In this document: positions 41,041 to 46,952 of the stretch, one piece after another
How the letters are laid out: every line of letters begins with the position of its first letter
Numbering within the stretch: the stretch's first letter is position 1
Assembly (NCBI GenBank): GCA_002702705.1
Contig: PABH01000053.1
Location: 1-64,000 of the forward strand
Reading direction: 5' to 3'
Origin: Anaerolineaceae bacterium
GTDB taxonomy: Bacteria > Chloroflexota > Anaerolineae > Anaerolineales > Anaerolineaceae
Length of the DNA stretch: 64,000 nt
Program-made: the position numbers and the translations under genes
The notes under the pieces: generated by a model
The model's input: the letters and a program-made list of their open reading frames with translations, nothing else
Told to the model about the DNA's origin: nothing
The model's database searches: none

Positions 41041-41154
41041 ATGGTTGCAAATCAAATGTTTGCATTTTATAATCATTTACAATATCAAATAAAAAAGGTG
41101 ACAACTTGGTTTTTGATTTTGATGAAAACAATCAAAAAAATAGAGGGTTTCTAG
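41041..41154 (+). CDS. Possible 37-residue leader peptide before the kinase operon
   Basis: ATG 41041 follows GGGGGG TTGATA, a strong ribosome binding site at good spacing, and opens a 37-residue frame that ends at 41154. It overlaps the start of the kinase gene (TTG 41106) in another frame by 49 bp. The middle of the peptide is hydrophobic. It could couple translation to the kinase or be a small membrane peptide; it could also be a chance frame. A dyad TGCAAA-N7-TTTGCA lies inside its first codons (41046-41064). Confidence 0.35.
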   Translation: MVANQMFAFYNHLQYQIKKVTTWFLILMKTIKKIEGF

Positions 41155-43028
41155 ATACCCAAAAAATAACTTCCAGCTTTAATCCTCACGAAAGCAAATC
41201 TTTCACTCAGCTTCAATCTGGAACAGTGCTTGTTAATCGATATCAGATTCAAGACGTCATTGGCGTAGGAGGAATGGGGTCCGTTTACCGTGCTAGAGAT
41301 AACCACTTTCCTAATGTTGTGAAATATGTTGCTGTAAAAGAAATGATTATTAACGCACCAGACCCATTGGTGCGCGAAACTATCGTGACAAATTTTGAAC
41401 GTGAAGCGAATATTCTCGTTACATTAAATCATCCATCCATTCCACAAATCTATGATTATTTTTCTAAAGACGAGCGCTCTTATTTGGTAATGGAATACAT
41501 CGCTGGTAAAGATTTAGAATCGATTTTAGCCGAAAATGATGGTCCATTACCTGAAGAGAAAGTAATGGCCTGGACTATTGAATTGTGTGATGTGTTAAGC
41601 TTTTTACATGGCCATCAACCGGAACCAATCATTTTTCGAGATATAAAACCCAGCAATATTATGATTGACCAATATGGAAAGGTAAAACTGGTTGATTTTG
41701 GTATCGCAAAAACTTTCCGATCCGGACAAAAAGGTACGATGATTGGTACGGAAGGCTATTCACCACCTGAGCAATATCGGGGTGAAGCCACACCAGTGGC
41801 AGATATATATGCATTGGGTGCAACGATTCATCATTTGTTAACAAATAAAGATCCCCGTGTAGAAGCGCCTTTTTCTTTTAATGAAAGAATGATACGTTCT
41901 ATTAATCCATTAATTTCTACTGAATTGGAAGTTGTTATTTACACAGCTCTTCATTATGACCCTGAAGATCGTTTTAAAACCACCGAAGATTTAAAACAAG
42001 CATTGGTATTGGCAGCAAGAAAAACTGGCATGTTGTCCAAAATAAATGTTAACAAAATCAACAAAGAACAAAATATTAAACCAATTTGGACCTTTAAATG
42101 TGAAGATGAAATCAGGGGATCAGTTCTTTATGAAAATGGTAGTGTCTATTGCGGTTCTTATGACAATAATCTTTACTCAGTTAATGCATCTGATGGTTCA
42201 TTCAATTGGAAATACCCGACTGAAGGTGGAGTTATTACCAAACCTACCTATCAGGATGGATTAATTCTGATAGGGTCGGAAGATGGTGGTTTACATGCTG
42301 TTTCAAGCAGAACAGGTAAACGGACCTGGTTTTTTAAAGCTGATGGACCAATACGAAGTTCAGCAAATATTGCGGAAGGGCATGCTTTTTTTGGGGCTGA
42401 TGATGGTTATTTGTATGCGGTAAACTTACTCTCAAATCGTTTAACATGGCGAGTAGAAAGTGGAGCACCTATCCGAACAACACCATTTGTTTCCAAAGAT
42501 TTTGTTTATGCCGGAACTGAAATGGGTGATTTTTTCAGCGTTGATTTCCGGGGACAAATTAAGTGGCGATTTAAAGCCAAAAGAGCCATTACTTCTTCTC
42601 CATTGGTTTCGGATGGAATTGTTTATTTTGCATCTTTAGATGCCCAATTTTATGCACTTGATTCCAAATCTGGTTGGGTTGTTTGGCGTTTTCGGATGGA
42701 AAAAGGATCTATTTCCTCCCCATGTAAAAAAGATAACAATGTTATTTTTGGCTCAGCTGATGGTTTTATTTATTGTCTTGATTCTGGCAATGCTAAAGAA
42801 ATTTGGAGTTTTAAAACAGACCATCAAGTTAGTGGTTCCCCGGTAATTTATAAGGATGGCGTTTACTGTGGTACTGCTGATGGCACCATGTACTGCCTTG
42901 ATTTCAATAAGGGTCATTTACGATGGAAATATAAAACGGGTGGACCAATTACAGGCACACCGACTGTTGTAAATGATGTAATTTATTTTGGATCAAGTGA
43001 TCATATGATTTATGCTCTTTATGCTTAA
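41106..43028 (+). CDS. Ser/Thr kinase fused to a PQQ-like beta-propeller
   Basis: A 640-residue protein. The kinase domain (about 45-305) has GVGGMGSVY, lysine K78, catalytic FRD (177-179, instead of HRD) followed by KPSNIM, and DFG at 197-199. Residues from about 320 form roughly seven PQQ-like blades, repeated WxF/Y..YAVD-type units such as VYAGTEMGDFFSVD, resembling AfsK-type kinases. There is no clear transmembrane helix, so the protein is probably cytoplasmic. TTG 41106 with AAAGGTGAC upstream is the likely start. It heads the PP2C/J-vWA/FHA set. Confidence 0.9.
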   Translation: MVFDFDENNQKNRGFLDTQKITSSFNPHESKSFTQLQSGTVLVNRYQIQDVIGVGGMGSVYRARDNHFPNVVKYVAVKEMIINAPDPLVRETIVTNFEREANILVTLNHPSIPQIYDYFSKDERSYLVMEYIAGKDLESILAENDGPLPEEKVMAWTIELCDVLSFLHGHQPEPIIFRDIKPSNIMIDQYGKVKLVDFGIAKTFRSGQKGTMIGTEGYSPPEQYRGEATPVADIYALGATIHHLLTNKDPRVEAPFSFNERMIRSINPLISTELEVVIYTALHYDPEDRFKTTEDLKQALVLAARKTGMLSKINVNKINKEQNIKPIWTFKCEDEIRGSVLYENGSVYCGSYDNNLYSVNASDGSFNWKYPTEGGVITKPTYQDGLILIGSEDGGLHAVSSRTGKRTWFFKADGPIRSSANIAEGHAFFGADDGYLYAVNLLSNRLTWRVESGAPIRTTPFVSKDFVYAGTEMGDFFSVDFRGQIKWRFKAKRAITSSPLVSDGIVYFASLDAQFYALDSKSGWVVWRFRMEKGSISSPCKKDNNVIFGSADGFIYCLDSGNAKEIWSFKTDHQVSGSPVIYKDGVYCGTADGTMYCLDFNKGHLRWKYKTGGPITGTPTVVNDVIYFGSSDHMIYALYA

Positions 43029-43055
43029 TATAGTTTGTTCGCCGTGGAGGAGAAT

Positions 43056-43955
43056 TTGTTAAATTCATTAAAAAACTTATTTCGACGAAAACAGCCCAAA
43101 AAAATTTTTGTGAATGTAGAGACTGCTCCACTTTCTGAAGAACAGTTAAAACGTGTAACGCGTCAGAATATTGAAATTAGTCCAACTCAATTTATTGTGG
43201 GGTGCGGTCAATCTGTTGGGAAACAAAGAGACCACAATGAAGATGCAATTTTTTATTTTAGCGCTATCTTTGCTGATGGGAATAAAGATGTACAATTTGG
43301 TGTATTTGTCGTTGCAGATGGAATGGGAGGGCATCAATTTGGTGAGGTAGCCAGTGGTTCGGCAGCCAGAGCGATGGGAGAATATCTTGTTCAAAAACTT
43401 TATTTTCCATTGTTCAGTATTGAATCAGAAATGCCAACCGAAAGTTTGCAAGAAATTATGGAAAATGGCGTAAAAAATGCCCAAAATGCTGTCGTTAGAA
43501 ATGCTCCAGGTGGAGGAACAACATTAACAGCTGTTTTGATTTTGGGTGAACAGGTAACAATTGCACATGTTGGTGATTCACGACTCTATAATATATATCC
43601 TGATGGTAGGATGGAAGCTATGACCAATGACCATTCATTGGTTCAACGTTTATTGGAATTAGGTCAAATAACTGAGAAAGAAGCTGAAAATCACCCAAAT
43701 AAAAATGTATTATATCGGGCTTTAGGCCAATCTGAGCCATTCAAACCAGATATTCAGACTTCACCTTTACCAAAACCAGGATACATATTAATTTGCAGCG
43801 ATGGTTTGTGGGGATTAGTTTCTGAGGATGAAATTTTTAGGATAATATCGTCTGAAGAATGTCCATCAAAAGCTTGTTCGTTATTAGTTGATGCAGCAAA
43901 TCAAGCTGGAGGACCAGATAATATTAGCGCCGTGTTGATAAAAACGTATTCATAA
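43056..43955 (+). CDS. PP2C-family Ser/Thr phosphatase
   Basis: A 299-residue PPM phosphatase with every metal-binding motif: RDHNED, VADGMGGH, HVGDSRLY, CSDGLWGL and GGPDNIS. It should remove phosphates placed by the adjacent kinase. The N-terminal 45 residues are basic and not part of the fold. GGAGG (43046-43050) favours TTG 43056; an upstream in-frame TTG 43035 and GTG 43044 lie before or on that site. It follows the kinase by 27 bp and precedes the J/vWA gene by 9 bp. Confidence 0.92.
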   Translation: MLNSLKNLFRRKQPKKIFVNVETAPLSEEQLKRVTRQNIEISPTQFIVGCGQSVGKQRDHNEDAIFYFSAIFADGNKDVQFGVFVVADGMGGHQFGEVASGSAARAMGEYLVQKLYFPLFSIESEMPTESLQEIMENGVKNAQNAVVRNAPGGGTTLTAVLILGEQVTIAHVGDSRLYNIYPDGRMEAMTNDHSLVQRLLELGQITEKEAENHPNKNVLYRALGQSEPFKPDIQTSPLPKPGYILICSDGLWGLVSEDEIFRIISSEECPSKACSLLVDAANQAGGPDNISAVLIKTYS

Positions 43956-43964
43956 AGAGGGGGT

Positions 43965-45431
43965 ATGGACTATTACAATCTATTAGAAATTCCTTTAGAC
44001 GCGACCACGGATGAAATTAGACGTTCGTATTTTCTTGCTGCCAAGAAATTTCATCCAGATAAAAACCCGAACATACAGTCTAATGAAAGATTTATTTTGA
44101 TTCAAAAGGCTTATGATGTTCTGATTGATCCAATTCGGCGAAAGGAATATGATGAACAATTTTCTGAAGAGGAAAAAAAATCACAATTCTTAAAAATGAA
44201 ATTGCAATTCAGCAGATCAGCAATTCCTATTATTGAAGGAAGTCAAAAAATATACACGTTGCTGGATATTTCAACAAAAAATGGCTTAGATCCTAATAGT
44301 TTTCCACCAATTAATATTTGTTTAGTTATTGATCGATCCACTTCTATGCAAGGTGAATTGTTAGAAAAAATAAAATTTGAGGCAATTAATTTATTACGAT
44401 TGTTAAGACCTGAAGATATGATTTCAGTAATTGCCTTTAGCGACCGAGCAGAAATTATTGTACCACCAACTCCAAGTTCAAATTTAGAACAAATAATTCC
44501 TAAAATTCAAACAATTCAAGCAAGCGGTGCAACAGAAATATTTCAAGGATTGTCATTTGGAGTTGAAGTATTAAGATCCATGGGCAAGGATAATGATCAA
44601 ATTCGTCAATTGATATTATTAACAGACGGACATACTTATGGTGATGAGGATAATTGTTATAATTTGATGCGCGAAGCACATCAAGATGGGATTACTTTGT
44701 TTGGAATTGGTGTGGGGGATGGTTGGAATGATCAATTTTTGGATAAGTTAACGCAGATTACTGGGGGAGAAACTCAATTTGTCAGCACTGCTCAAGAAAT
44801 GTATAATTCTCTTATAGACCGAGTTGTTTCTGCTGGTGTGGTTTTAGCTCATAATGTTCAATTATCTTTTGAAACAAACCAGATGGTTAAATTAAACTAT
44901 GTTTTCCGGTACAGCCCGGGGCTATCTCAATTAGCGGTCGATTCACCCATTGCATTGGGAAATCTTCAATACGGTAAACATTTAAGGATTATTTTCGAAT
45001 TTGAAATTGATGAATTGCCAGTTTCTACAACAGAATTAAAGCTTTTACGTGGTGTCATCACCATGGATTTGCCCTCATTAAGTGTTCATCGGAAAAGATT
45101 TTTTGTGGATTTTAACCGGACAGTAAAATTACGAATCGATAAAGAATCTCCACCAGCACAAATTATTGAAGCCATGTCTCATTTAACCTTATATCGAATT
45201 CAGGAAAAAGCACAGGAATCTATTAAATTAGGAGATATGACAAAAGCTTCTAAACATTTACATCATATGGCTACTCATTTATTAGCAAAAGGTGATCGAA
45301 ATCTTGCTCATACAGTGCTAAAGGAAGCTGAGTTTTTGAAAAATAACAACAAATTATCAGATTTGGGTGAGAAAAAAATTAAATATGGTACCAGGGCATT
45401 ATTGTTGTTACCTGAACCGGAGATGGATTAG
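43965..45431 (+). CDS. J-domain/von Willebrand factor A fusion protein
   Basis: A 488-residue protein. Residues 1-66 are a J-domain with the HPDK tripeptide-plus at 30-33, needed to stimulate DnaK. Residues about 115-290 are a vWA domain with a complete metal-ion-dependent adhesion site: D123xS125xS127, T190 and D221. The rest forms a beta-rich segment then an amphipathic helical tail. No signal peptide or membrane helix. GGGGG before the ATG. It stands between the phosphatase and FHA genes, so is probably a phospho-regulated scaffold or chaperone adaptor; function is inferred. Confidence 0.88.
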   Translation: MDYYNLLEIPLDATTDEIRRSYFLAAKKFHPDKNPNIQSNERFILIQKAYDVLIDPIRRKEYDEQFSEEEKKSQFLKMKLQFSRSAIPIIEGSQKIYTLLDISTKNGLDPNSFPPINICLVIDRSTSMQGELLEKIKFEAINLLRLLRPEDMISVIAFSDRAEIIVPPTPSSNLEQIIPKIQTIQASGATEIFQGLSFGVEVLRSMGKDNDQIRQLILLTDGHTYGDEDNCYNLMREAHQDGITLFGIGVGDGWNDQFLDKLTQITGGETQFVSTAQEMYNSLIDRVVSAGVVLAHNVQLSFETNQMVKLNYVFRYSPGLSQLAVDSPIALGNLQYGKHLRIIFEFEIDELPVSTTELKLLRGVITMDLPSLSVHRKRFFVDFNRTVKLRIDKESPPAQIIEAMSHLTLYRIQEKAQESIKLGDMTKASKHLHHMATHLLAKGDRNLAHTVLKEAEFLKNNNKLSDLGEKKIKYGTRALLLLPEPEMD

Positions 45432-45433
45432 TT

Positions 45434-45970
45434 ATGATTATTTGTCCAAATTGTCATCACAAAGAATTGCCAGGCGCTTTATTTTGTAGCGAATGCGGTG
45501 CAAGATTAATATCGCTTGATTATCTTACAACACAATCATTACAAAAGGCGCCTAGTGATCATCTGCATGAACCGGTTGGGTATTCCAATTCAACCGTAAA
45601 AGATATTGATCATGTTGATGATCCAGAGTTGCCGGAAGATATCGATGCTGAATTGGCTTTGTATGTGCTGGAAAATAAACAGACATTGCATTTAGCTGGG
45701 CGAGCAGAGTTTACTTTAGGCAGAGTAGCTGAAGGACAGCCCATTTTACCGGATGTGGATTTATCGCCTTATGATGCTTATGCTCAAGGAGTCTCACGTT
45801 TGCATGCCGCGCTAAAAGTTACTCGAAACCGTGTTGCAATCATGGATCTGGGTTCTTCCAATGGAACCAGAGTTAATGGTCAAAAAATTGTTCCCCATGT
45901 CGATTATCCCTTAAATCATAGTGATGTCATTGCGTTAGGTAAATTAAAATTACAGGTTATTATTAAATAG
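45434..45970 (+). CDS. Zinc-ribbon/FHA-domain protein
   Basis: A 178-residue protein with an N-terminal zinc ribbon (C4, C7, C18, C21) and a C-terminal FHA domain (about 85-178). The FHA keeps the GR, VSRLHAAL and GSSNGTRVNG motifs that form the phosphothreonine pocket. The middle is acidic. It should recognise phosphorylated proteins, and the kinase just upstream is the obvious source. It begins 2 bp after the J/vWA stop and is followed 9 bp later by the 79-residue gene. Confidence 0.88.
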   Translation: MIICPNCHHKELPGALFCSECGARLISLDYLTTQSLQKAPSDHLHEPVGYSNSTVKDIDHVDDPELPEDIDAELALYVLENKQTLHLAGRAEFTLGRVAEGQPILPDVDLSPYDAYAQGVSRLHAALKVTRNRVAIMDLGSSNGTRVNGQKIVPHVDYPLNHSDVIALGKLKLQVIIK

Positions 45971-45979
45971 GGAGATTAA

Positions 45980-46219
45980 ATGCCTTCAGTAATCTTACAT
46001 GTTTCAAATGAAGAACCAGTGATAGGGGAAGTCGATGAATTACCAAAGATGAGTGATGTAATGATTCAGCTAAAAAATCCGCGTCGTAGGGATGGAAAAG
46101 ATTTGCATTATTTGGAAGCGAATATCACGGTTGTTATCTGGCCTATTCATCGCGTGAACTTTATTGAAATTATTCCTTCAGGAGAAGAAGACGATATTAT
46201 TTCGTTTGTTAGAGAATAA
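45980..46219 (+). CDS. Unrecognised 79-residue protein
   Basis: A 79-residue protein of predicted beta-rich, single-domain character: MPSVILHVSN and EANITVVIWPIHRVNFIEIIP are alternating hydrophobic strands, with a basic NPRRRDGKD loop between and an acidic C-terminus. The strand pattern is a little like an Sm-type or small barrel fold, but I do not recognise a family. GGAGATTAA precedes the ATG. Its place between the FHA and response regulator genes suggests it belongs to the same signalling operon. Confidence 0.7.
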   Translation: MPSVILHVSNEEPVIGEVDELPKMSDVMIQLKNPRRRDGKDLHYLEANITVVIWPIHRVNFIEIIPSGEEDDIISFVRE

Positions 46220-46223
46220 AATT

Positions 46224-46952
46224 ATGGATGATACTTTTAAAAACAAAACGATTCTTGTTGTAGACGATGAAGAGCGGATGGCTCGTTTCATTCGACTTAA
46301 TCTTGAACATGATGGTTTTCGAGTCGTTGAAGCTTACCGTGGAATGCAAGCCTTACAGGAGTATAGAGATTCATTGCCTGATTTGGTATTACTTGATGTG
46401 ATGCTTCCAGATATTGAGGGTTTTGAAGTACTAAAACTACTACGTGAAATCAGTAATGTCCCAGTCATTATGCTTACAGCAAAAAGCGAAGAAGATGATC
46501 GTGTACGTGGATTAGAATTAGGCGCAGATGATTATGTGACTAAACCATTTAGCCCGAGAGAGCTTGTTAGCCGTGTGCGAGCAGTTTTACGTAGGACTGA
46601 AGCAACTTCTAATGAAAGTTCCGATTTGGTTGAGGTGGATTCTAGATTAAAATTGGATTTCTCACGACGCGAAATTTGGGTGAATGATGAGCTCGTAAAA
46701 CTTCGGCCAACTGAATATCGGTTGTTATATCACCTGGTAAAAAATGCAGGTTGGGTCTTAACATATGACCAATTGTTATCCCGAGTTTGGGGATATGAGT
46801 ATAGGGATGAGCCTCATTACGTACGTTTGTATATTAATTATTTACGACAAAAGTTAGAGGAAGATCCTTCAAACCCGGTTTATATTTTAACAGAGCGTGG
46901 AGTAGGTTACCGTTTTGTTGATTTCCGGCGTAAAGATATTGAAAAATCATAA
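46224..46952 (+). CDS. OmpR/PhoB-family response regulator (orphan)
   Basis: A 242-residue regulator. The receiver domain has D14-D15, phosphoacceptor D58, T85 and K107; the C-terminal winged helix (about 150-240) has LRPTEYRLLYHL and VWGYEYRDEPHYVRLYINYLRQKL. No histidine kinase is nearby, so it may be phosphorylated by an unlinked kinase or by the adjacent Ser/Thr kinase. ATG 46224 lies 4 bp after the 79-residue gene, with a weak ribosome binding site, and the in-frame extension to 46164 runs inside that gene. DNA target unknown. Confidence 0.92.
   Translation: MDDTFKNKTILVVDDEERMARFIRLNLEHDGFRVVEAYRGMQALQEYRDSLPDLVLLDVMLPDIEGFEVLKLLREISNVPVIMLTAKSEEDDRVRGLELGADDYVTKPFSPRELVSRVRAVLRRTEATSNESSDLVEVDSRLKLDFSRREIWVNDELVKLRPTEYRLLYHLVKNAGWVLTYDQLLSRVWGYEYRDEPHYVRLYINYLRQKLEEDPSNPVYILTERGVGYRFVDFRRKDIEKS

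Follow-up and report, generated by a model that had tools for sequence, protein, structure and literature searches.

The 488-residue protein encoded at positions 43965-45431 of the window, i.e., the whole 64,000-nucleotide stretch of Anaerolineaceae DNA analysed here, combines an N-terminal J-domain with a vWA protein of the ArnB type (J-vWA protein), and is followed by a gene for an ArnA-like partner with a Zn-ribbon and an FHA domain. The assignment of this pair as ArnAB-like is well supported. We further consider it somewhat more likely than not that the J-vWA protein supplies the ArnB-like part of a bacterial phospho-switch of the ArnA/ArnB type, with the J-domain bringing DnaK. This reading is based on the domain make-up, the intact motifs, the predicted fold, the ArnA-like neighbour, the gene order, and the joint absence of the pair. 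The features concerned are the following.

41106-43028, + strand: Ser/Thr protein kinase (residues 45-297) with a C-terminal PQQ/BamB-like beta-propeller, AfsK-like, first gene of the run (Pfam Pkinase, 4.6e-42; PQQ_2, 3.3e-39; 71 aligned rows)
43035-43955, + strand: PP2C-type protein phosphatase (Pfam PP2C, 1.8e-13; NCBIfam Stp1_PP2C_phos, 219.3 bits; 79 rows)
43965-45431, + strand: J-domain plus ArnB-like vWA protein, 488 aa, the main subject
43968-44153, + strand: DnaJ domain, residues 2-63 (Pfam DnaJ, E 2.7e-19; model helices 3-6, 15-29, 37-54 and 56-63)
44052-44060, + strand: HPD motif, residues 30-32 (sequence and alignments)
44313-44786, + strand: vWA domain, residues 117-274 (Pfam VWA, E 7.5e-20)
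44331-44345, + strand: MIDAS DxSxS, residues 123-127, with D123, S125 and S127 (sequence and alignments)
44532-44534, + strand: MIDAS T190 (alignments)
44625-44627, + strand: MIDAS D221 (alignments)
45156-45398, + strand: predicted C-terminal helical bundle, residues 398-478, putative counterpart of the ArnB regulatory bundle (model helices; ArnB alignment to residue 483)
45390-45392, + strand: T476 of the YGTR motif, candidate phospho-acceptor (conservation; near ArnB T375 by range ends)
45434-45970, + strand: Zn-ribbon plus FHA protein, ArnA-like (Pfam FHA, 3.2e-14; Zn_Ribbon_1, 7e-6; PDB profile)
45980-46219, + strand: unnamed conserved 79-aa protein (P0009), found in 101 of 112 cluster loci
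46224-46952, + strand: OmpR-type response regulator (Pfam Response_reg and Trans_reg_C), 4 bp after the 79-aa gene

The J-vWA protein is read from one complete ORF, which starts with the ATG at 43965 and has the stretch AAAGAGGGGG a short way upstream. The Pfam search places both domains in this single ORF, DnaJ with 69.5 bits against a cut-off of 27.8 and VWA with 72.3 bits against a cut-off of 23.8. This bears out the earlier note, which had described a J-domain fused to a vWA domain with a complete MIDAS; the residues it gave, H30-P31-D32-K33 and DxSxS/T190/D221, are all intact, and both domains are conserved in relatives. Given that DnaJ models cover only about residues 1-83, with no other DnaJ module, the protein is best assigned to the class C type of J-domain proteins (Hsp40), which have the HPD-bearing J-domain alone. 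Seven families of the class, and at least three genomes outside it, show this frame uninterrupted, and full-length homologues are encoded in 8 of the 8 genus genomes searched; hence a J-domain joined by a misread frame, raised in that note as a possible refutation, is excluded.

Within the genus, the eight full-length J-vWA genes include that of the window's own genome, and the seven others are 46-58% identical to it. Among the 101 family genomes sampled, 48 present a match extending over the J-domain (that of G087 being a fragment located at the end of a contig), six present only a J-less vWA match, and 47 present none at E 1e-20; in the phylum, 96 of 301 genomes have a match. Among the matches listed, the class families with the J-bearing frame are f1, f2, f5, f8, f10, f11 and f12, with the HPD lost in the sampled members of f8 and f12, and at least three genomes outside the class (G111, G285 and G184) have it as well. 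When genome contigs were searched, the best 80 of at least 437 relatives all bore the names of Chloroflexota groups, carriers among these 80 including Anaerolinea thermolimosa, Thermanaerothrix daxensis and Ornatilinea apprima. The view that this is not a standard architecture holds insofar as no description of a fusion between a J-domain and a vWA or ArnB-like protein was found among the matches listed in the open-licence literature; as to frequency, the architecture is not rare, given its 48 of 101 family genomes.

The motifs are well kept. The HPD is present in 55 of 57 J-bearing homologues, the exceptions being a QPN in L064/G335 and a deletion in L069/G243. The MIDAS is complete in both of these, as it is in all 57 J-bearing and all 18 J-less rows, the distant paralogues L100 and L101 having been dropped before this count. 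In a second set of 80 loci plus P0001, both motifs are kept in 81 of 81 proteins, this set having been chosen by similarity and thus being biased towards conservation. Taken together, the HPD counts (55/57 and 81/81) indicate that the J-domain is under selection.

Versions without a J-domain also exist. In G327, G019 and G051, as well as in other Chloroflexota classes, the vWA gene of the cluster lacks a J-domain, and J-less orthologues of the same order and of other classes keep the same gene arrangement. A plasmid search returned 34 records, and none of the best 15 matches spans the whole J-domain; the vWA proteins of Trichormus variabilis plasmid B and Tolypothrix PCC 7712 can be aligned over residues 73-478 or 39-478 with 22-23% identity. 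Given these J-less versions in other Chloroflexota and on cyanobacterial plasmids, the J-domain would be a lineage-specific feature. It is also dispensable to the gene set, in view of the J-less clusters and of the two lineages that have a J region without the HPD. The J-domain tree does not reject a single origin for all the fused J-domains (AU p = 0.734), a value that decides little with 84 columns and six free J-domains, and in the vWA tree the J/no-J labels require four changes, several branches being long or open. The simplest account, and a likely one, is that the J-domain was joined once and early, and that G327 and G019/G051 lost it later.

The six genes of the run lie on one strand in the order kinase with propeller, PP2C, J-vWA, FHA, 79-aa protein and regulator, separated by gaps of 6, 9, 2, 9 and 4 bp. 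TTG is called as the start of the kinase and PP2C genes, and both of these starts are uncertain; the regulator probably starts at the ATG at 46224 and not at the TTG at 46164, which lies within the 79-aa gene. The Stp1_PP2C_phos score of the phosphatase is below that model's own cut-off of 230 bits. Considering the loci of the 80-locus set with enough flank, the kinase with propeller is found upstream in 69 of 72, the PP2C upstream in 76 of 78, the FHA gene downstream in 75 of 77, and the regulator nearby in 70 of 71. Those kinase, PP2C and FHA genes that this count did not see, seven in all, were every one recovered by tblastn (kinase in L121, L144 and L160; PP2C in L163 and L164; FHA in L139 and L164), and these initial gaps are artefacts of the ORF and distance limits. 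The kinase of L160 is split over two frames, and that of L144 lies about 1.2 kb further away. The FHA genes of L080 and L088 are likewise present on frame reading. In the genus genomes, the cluster usually lies between the same flanking genes, e.g., thioredoxin and MurA. A promoter and terminator scan yielded counts near those of shuffles. At one further locus of a family member, L094 (G015:C251:14000-33500), four vWA genes, kinases, PP2Cs and Zn-ribbon plus FHA genes are packed in 19.5 kb.

The 79-aa ORF falls below the size cut-off of the ORF list. Its presence in the cluster loci is divided into 24 of 32 in one set and 77 of 80 in the other, and R35 and D38-G39-K40 are invariant in 26 of 26 aligned rows. 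No match was found for this protein in Pfam or NCBIfam at E <= 1, nor in the PDB by profile at E <= 1.

The AlphaFold2 model of the J-vWA protein, built from an alignment of 54 sequences, presents a pLDDT of 89.5 and a pTM of 0.85. After the J-domain, the order is strands 76-104, the vWA domain, strands 293-388, and helices 398-421, 425-441, 445-461 and 466-478. This is the beta-sandwich split by the vWA domain and followed by a C-terminal helical bundle that characterizes ArnB, a feature seen here in the predicted model only. The top fold match is Catenulispora 4fx5 (Z 34.8, 386 aligned residues), followed by the ArnB chain in 8s05, a structure of the ArnAB complex (Z 30.5, 371 aligned, model residues 74-483), and Sulfolobus vWA2 5a8j (Z 26.3, 351 aligned). 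A second fold search agrees, as the same three structures head the Foldseek list. The next matches are an inter-alpha-inhibitor heavy chain, with Z 24.5 over 324 residues at 6.6 Å, and single vWA domains, with Z of about 22-25 over about 170-190 residues.

At the sequence level, similarity to ArnB is confined to the vWA domain (profile 119-313). A profile of the helical bundle searched against the PDB returned mostly designed helical proteins and no ArnB, and Pfam ArnB_C, applied to 23 members, matched three (best E 0.0091), the protein at 43965-45431 not being among them. Judging by the model, the part following the J-domain as an ArnB-type vWA/beta-sandwich/helical-bundle protein, and more than a generic vWA, is well supported. 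The earlier note was hence right that the J-domain's partner is a vWA, but the predicted fold and the ArnA-like neighbour identify it as ArnB-type rather than generic. Near the end of the bundle, 56 of 57 J-bearing and 13 of 18 J-less rows share T476, which may correspond approximately to ArnB residue 375, a placement taken from the ends of the aligned ranges (483 versus 382) and not from a residue-level alignment.

Turning to the partner, a profile of the FHA protein from 27 family members gives ArnA as its best PDB matches (5a8i, 1.3e-15; 8s05_C, 2e-15). This pair tops 56 PDB sequences, with the next protein at 7.8e-12, and both the Zn-ribbon and the FHA stretches are aligned. Zn-ribbons share a general consensus, and a resemblance of the ribbon alone would be weak. 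With the single FHA-protein sequence as query, ArnA is not the best PDB match (E 0.0078, rank 12 of 25). The four Cys and the GR, SRxH and N positions are kept in 78 of 78 rows, and the gene run thus encodes a Zn-ribbon plus FHA partner with intact phosphopeptide residues, as in ArnA/ArnB. In genus g11 (four genomes), the FHA profile matches only from position 66; the FHA genes L198 and L199 of this genus have the Zn-ribbon and a shorter linker. A structure model of the FHA protein made without an alignment reached a pLDDT of 43.4 and was set aside. The linker between Zn-ribbon and FHA domain contains a TTQ motif (residues 32-34, 45527-45535, + strand), found in many aligned rows, which is a possible phosphorylation site.

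The two genes also travel together. An FHA orthologue (E <= 1e-25) is present in 49 of the 101 family genomes, namely 47 of the 48 J-vWA genomes plus G015 and G051, and the sole J-vWA genome without one is G087, with its fragment at a contig end. The 79-aa protein is present in 56 of the 101: the same 47 J-vWA genomes, G019 and G051 (both with a J-less vWA), and seven more without a full-length cluster vWA match (G009, G015, G025, G032, G083, G090 and G100). Five of these seven were inspected (L193 in G032, L194 in G090, L195 in G025, L196 in G083 and L197 in G009), and all five have the kinase, PP2C, 79-aa and regulator genes in the usual sequence, vWA and FHA genes being absent from the interval. 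Given this joint absence while the rest persists, the gene content indicates that the vWA and FHA genes form a unit and that the kinase, PP2C, 79-aa protein and regulator have another role too.

J-proteins stimulate Hsp70 on nearby clients in an HPD-dependent manner. Since both domains are intact and conserved, it is reasonable to read the J-vWA protein as a vWA protein that would likely recruit DnaK. The genome has two full-length HSP70 genes (G000:C22:113446-115233 and G000:C44:115605-117383). Copy number was considered as a sign of a dedicated DnaK and gives no clear signal: at least two HSP70 matches occur in 35 of 48 J-vWA genomes versus 28 of 53 others, raw counts that ignore kinship and do not clearly separate the groups. 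Six family genomes, four of them with J-vWA, have no HSP70 match at E <= 1e-100, all six being 61-90% complete. DnaK paralogues are reported as frequent in Chloroflexi, in 54.5% of 55 genomes (PMC11019930).

As for how the proposed phospho-switch would work, phosphorylation sites, FHA binding, DnaK recruitment, the effect of DnaK and the output are parts that we infer. The propeller kinase would phosphorylate threonines in the C-terminal helical bundle, with T476 as the best candidate, and the PP2C would strip these phosphates again. Before phosphorylation, the Zn-ribbon plus FHA partner may be loosely attached via its Zn-ribbon, and once the bundle is phosphorylated and loosened, the FHA domain would grip it. 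The J-domain, which adjoins the beta-sandwich along the polypeptide, would stimulate DnaK on the same complex. DnaK might then either hold the opened bundle for the FHA partner, or strip and refold the bundle and so release the partner, and its action would set the duration of the switched state. The output would probably run via the co-directional 79-aa protein and the OmpR-type regulator. A bundle opened by phosphorylation would be the type of exposed segment that Hsp70 binds, and DnaK would be guided there by a J-domain belonging to that very polypeptide. Taken further, this would make the protein a phosphorylation-gated Hsp70 machine, in which the bundle is partly unfolded, its own J-domain directs DnaK in cis, and a general chaperone becomes the motor that resets a kinase/FHA switch with a Sec23/24-type fold; we offer this extension tentatively. 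Evidence on the other side of the switch reading is that the kinase, with its propeller, and the PP2C differ from the ArnC and PP2A of Sulfolobus, and that the ArnB likeness in sequence is found in the vWA domain only. The J-less clusters and HPD-less lineages, the persistence of kinase, PP2C and regulator where the pair is absent, and the reported spread of ArnB-like architecture, mostly outside multi-phosphorylation systems (PMC12852372), also weigh against it.

The earlier note's own reading was a client adaptor, in which the vWA domain (through its MIDAS) and the beta-sandwich would catch a third protein and the J-domain would hand it over to DnaK, with kinase, phosphatase and FHA protein regulating delivery. 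The MIDAS, intact in 57/57 J-bearing and 18/18 J-less rows, and the HPD, kept in 55/57, are consistent with such a role, and vWA proteins are described as co-chaperones of MoxR ATPases (PMC7159879). However, the tight pairing with an ArnA-like FHA protein and the ArnB-like bundle suggest that the main partner is the FHA protein, and the MIDAS is equally intact without a J-domain, which argues that it is independent of delivery to DnaK. We thus regard a client adaptor as unlikely. Metal-dependent binding passed on to DnaK, as that note suggested, is possible but is not the best-supported mechanism, given that the contacts reported for the Arn proteins are made via FHA domain and bundle and via the zinc finger.

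The J-domain could also be a docking or scaffold element for the kinase, the regulator or the FHA protein, acting other than via DnaK. The two lineages with a J region lacking the HPD (QPN in G335, deletion in G243) and the J-less members that retain the cluster would agree with this, but a J-fold with a pure docking role could do without the HPD, which is kept in 55/57 and 81/81 proteins, and we find a non-chaperone role quite improbable. Finally, vWA, PP2C and kinase are the three protein classes of TerY-P-type triads (PMC11090510), and sets of these three are noted in PMC7159879; on this reading, the run would be tied to stress or phage defence, with the J-domain as decoration. The kinase matches several PADLOC kinase models over its kinase domain (PD-T4-6 and others), and the PP2C matches PDC-M21C (E 8.4e-15), yet PADLOC finds no match for the J-vWA or the FHA protein. 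At the C-terminus of TerY-P kinases lies a Zn-ribbon, or an OB-fold in TerY-P-like sets, whereas here the kinase ends in a propeller and it is the FHA protein that bears the Zn-ribbon. Nor does the run resemble a mobile defence island, as all 8 genus genomes searched have it, usually with identical flanks (thioredoxin, MurA). A defence role is therefore very hard to credit. The ArnAB-like phospho-switch with a DnaK-recruiting J-domain is the reading we retain.

If so, this would be a bacterial ArnAB counterpart with kinase, phosphatase, both switch halves and regulator in one gene run, in which the J-domain may be seen as a natural marker of the cellular machine that acts on the complex. It would also offer a testable link between Hsp70 and a phospho-switch, in that the cell's general folding machinery may here be part of a switch run by phosphorylation. 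Nature provides J-plus, J-minus and HPD-less versions for comparison, and the analysis exposes the 79-aa protein as a conserved component of the run.

Several known systems touch on parts of this set. Pairs of MoxR ATPases and vWA proteins, DnaJ fused to FNIII proteins in GAP1-N2 systems, and sets of kinase, PP2C and vWA have been noted (PMC7159879), and in yeast Hsp70 affects the vWA-bearing kinase scaffold Ste5 (PMC10584130); none of the MoxR-vWA, DnaJ-FNIII and Ste5/Hsp70 cases shares the J-vWA architecture. TerY-P likewise co-encodes vWA, PP2C and Ser/Thr kinase, but its description in PMC11090510 names no FHA partner, a Zn-ribbon or OB-fold rather than a propeller accompanies its kinase, and it is tied to tellurite resistance and to DNA restriction and processing systems. 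The COPII Sec23/Sec24 core shares the vWA/beta-sandwich/helical core, as indicated by Foldseek and by the authors of 8s05, and differs in having no J-domain, a gelsolin-type domain and a role in a eukaryotic coat, with query TM-scores of 0.41-0.47.

Closer in gene content are the cyanobacterial plasmid sets, in which FHA and PP2C genes come after a vWA gene, Tolypothrix having a kinase in addition. They differ from the J-vWA locus in that the J-domain is lacking (one Trichormus protein, by Pfam), the kinase is of a TPR type, and extra vWA and ARC6-like IMS proteins are present. The plasmid sets L190 and L192 (the latter with the kinase) both encode a protein annotated as of the ARC6/PARC6 family, and the one of L190, which was scanned, has an ARC6-like IMS domain. 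An archaeal operon co-encodes a phosphatase, a Zn-ribbon plus FHA protein and vWA plus beta-barrel proteins, as does the J-vWA set in outline, but its phosphatase is calcineurin-like and its description in PMC7016017 mentions neither a kinase nor a J-domain. The highest structural match, 4fx5 (caci_2163) of Catenulispora acidiphila, is a bacterial protein of ArnB-like architecture, for which the account in PMC6509490 mentions neither a J-domain nor a function. ArnB-like architecture is reported to be widespread, mostly outside multi-phosphorylation systems (PMC12852372).

In the Sulfolobus ArnA-ArnB system, as long as ArnB is unphosphorylated, the zinc finger of ArnA touches its beta-sandwich and its C-terminal domain. 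When ArnC phosphorylates ArnB, in a process that advances to the buried threonines T371-T375, the helical bundle is rearranged and the FHA domain of ArnA binds it (PMC12852372). The complex is thus described as loose through the zinc finger and as tight once phosphorylation has loosened the bundle. The reported contacts are thus those between the FHA domain and phospho-threonines of the bundle and those between the zinc finger and the beta-sandwich plus bundle, a MIDAS contact being only suggested (PMC12852372, PMC6509490). The ArnB phosphopeptide is IDTVEQTR, the bundle is required for ArnA binding, and single alanine changes in ArnB leave motility unaffected (PMC6509490); according to its authors, the downstream mechanism of the ArnAB motility switch is unexplained (PMC12852372). 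Archaella occur in some Chloroflexota, Anaerolineae included (PMC12488501). Control of archaellum genes was considered for the present set and rejected: archaellin (PF01917) was found in 0 of the 101 family genomes, and the set is therefore classed as ArnAB-like only and not as an archaellum regulator.

Compared with Sulfolobus ArnA-ArnB (8s05, 5a8i and the paralogue 5a8j), the J-vWA set differs in being bacterial, in its N-terminal J-domain, in the downstream regulator and 79-aa protein, and in having a propeller kinase and a PP2C where Sulfolobus has ArnC (OB, TPR-like) and PP2A. It resembles that system in the vWA domain with an intact MIDAS, the split beta-sandwich and C-terminal bundle of the predicted fold, the Zn-ribbon plus FHA partner, the accompanying Ser/Thr kinase and phosphatase, and a threonine near the end of the bundle.
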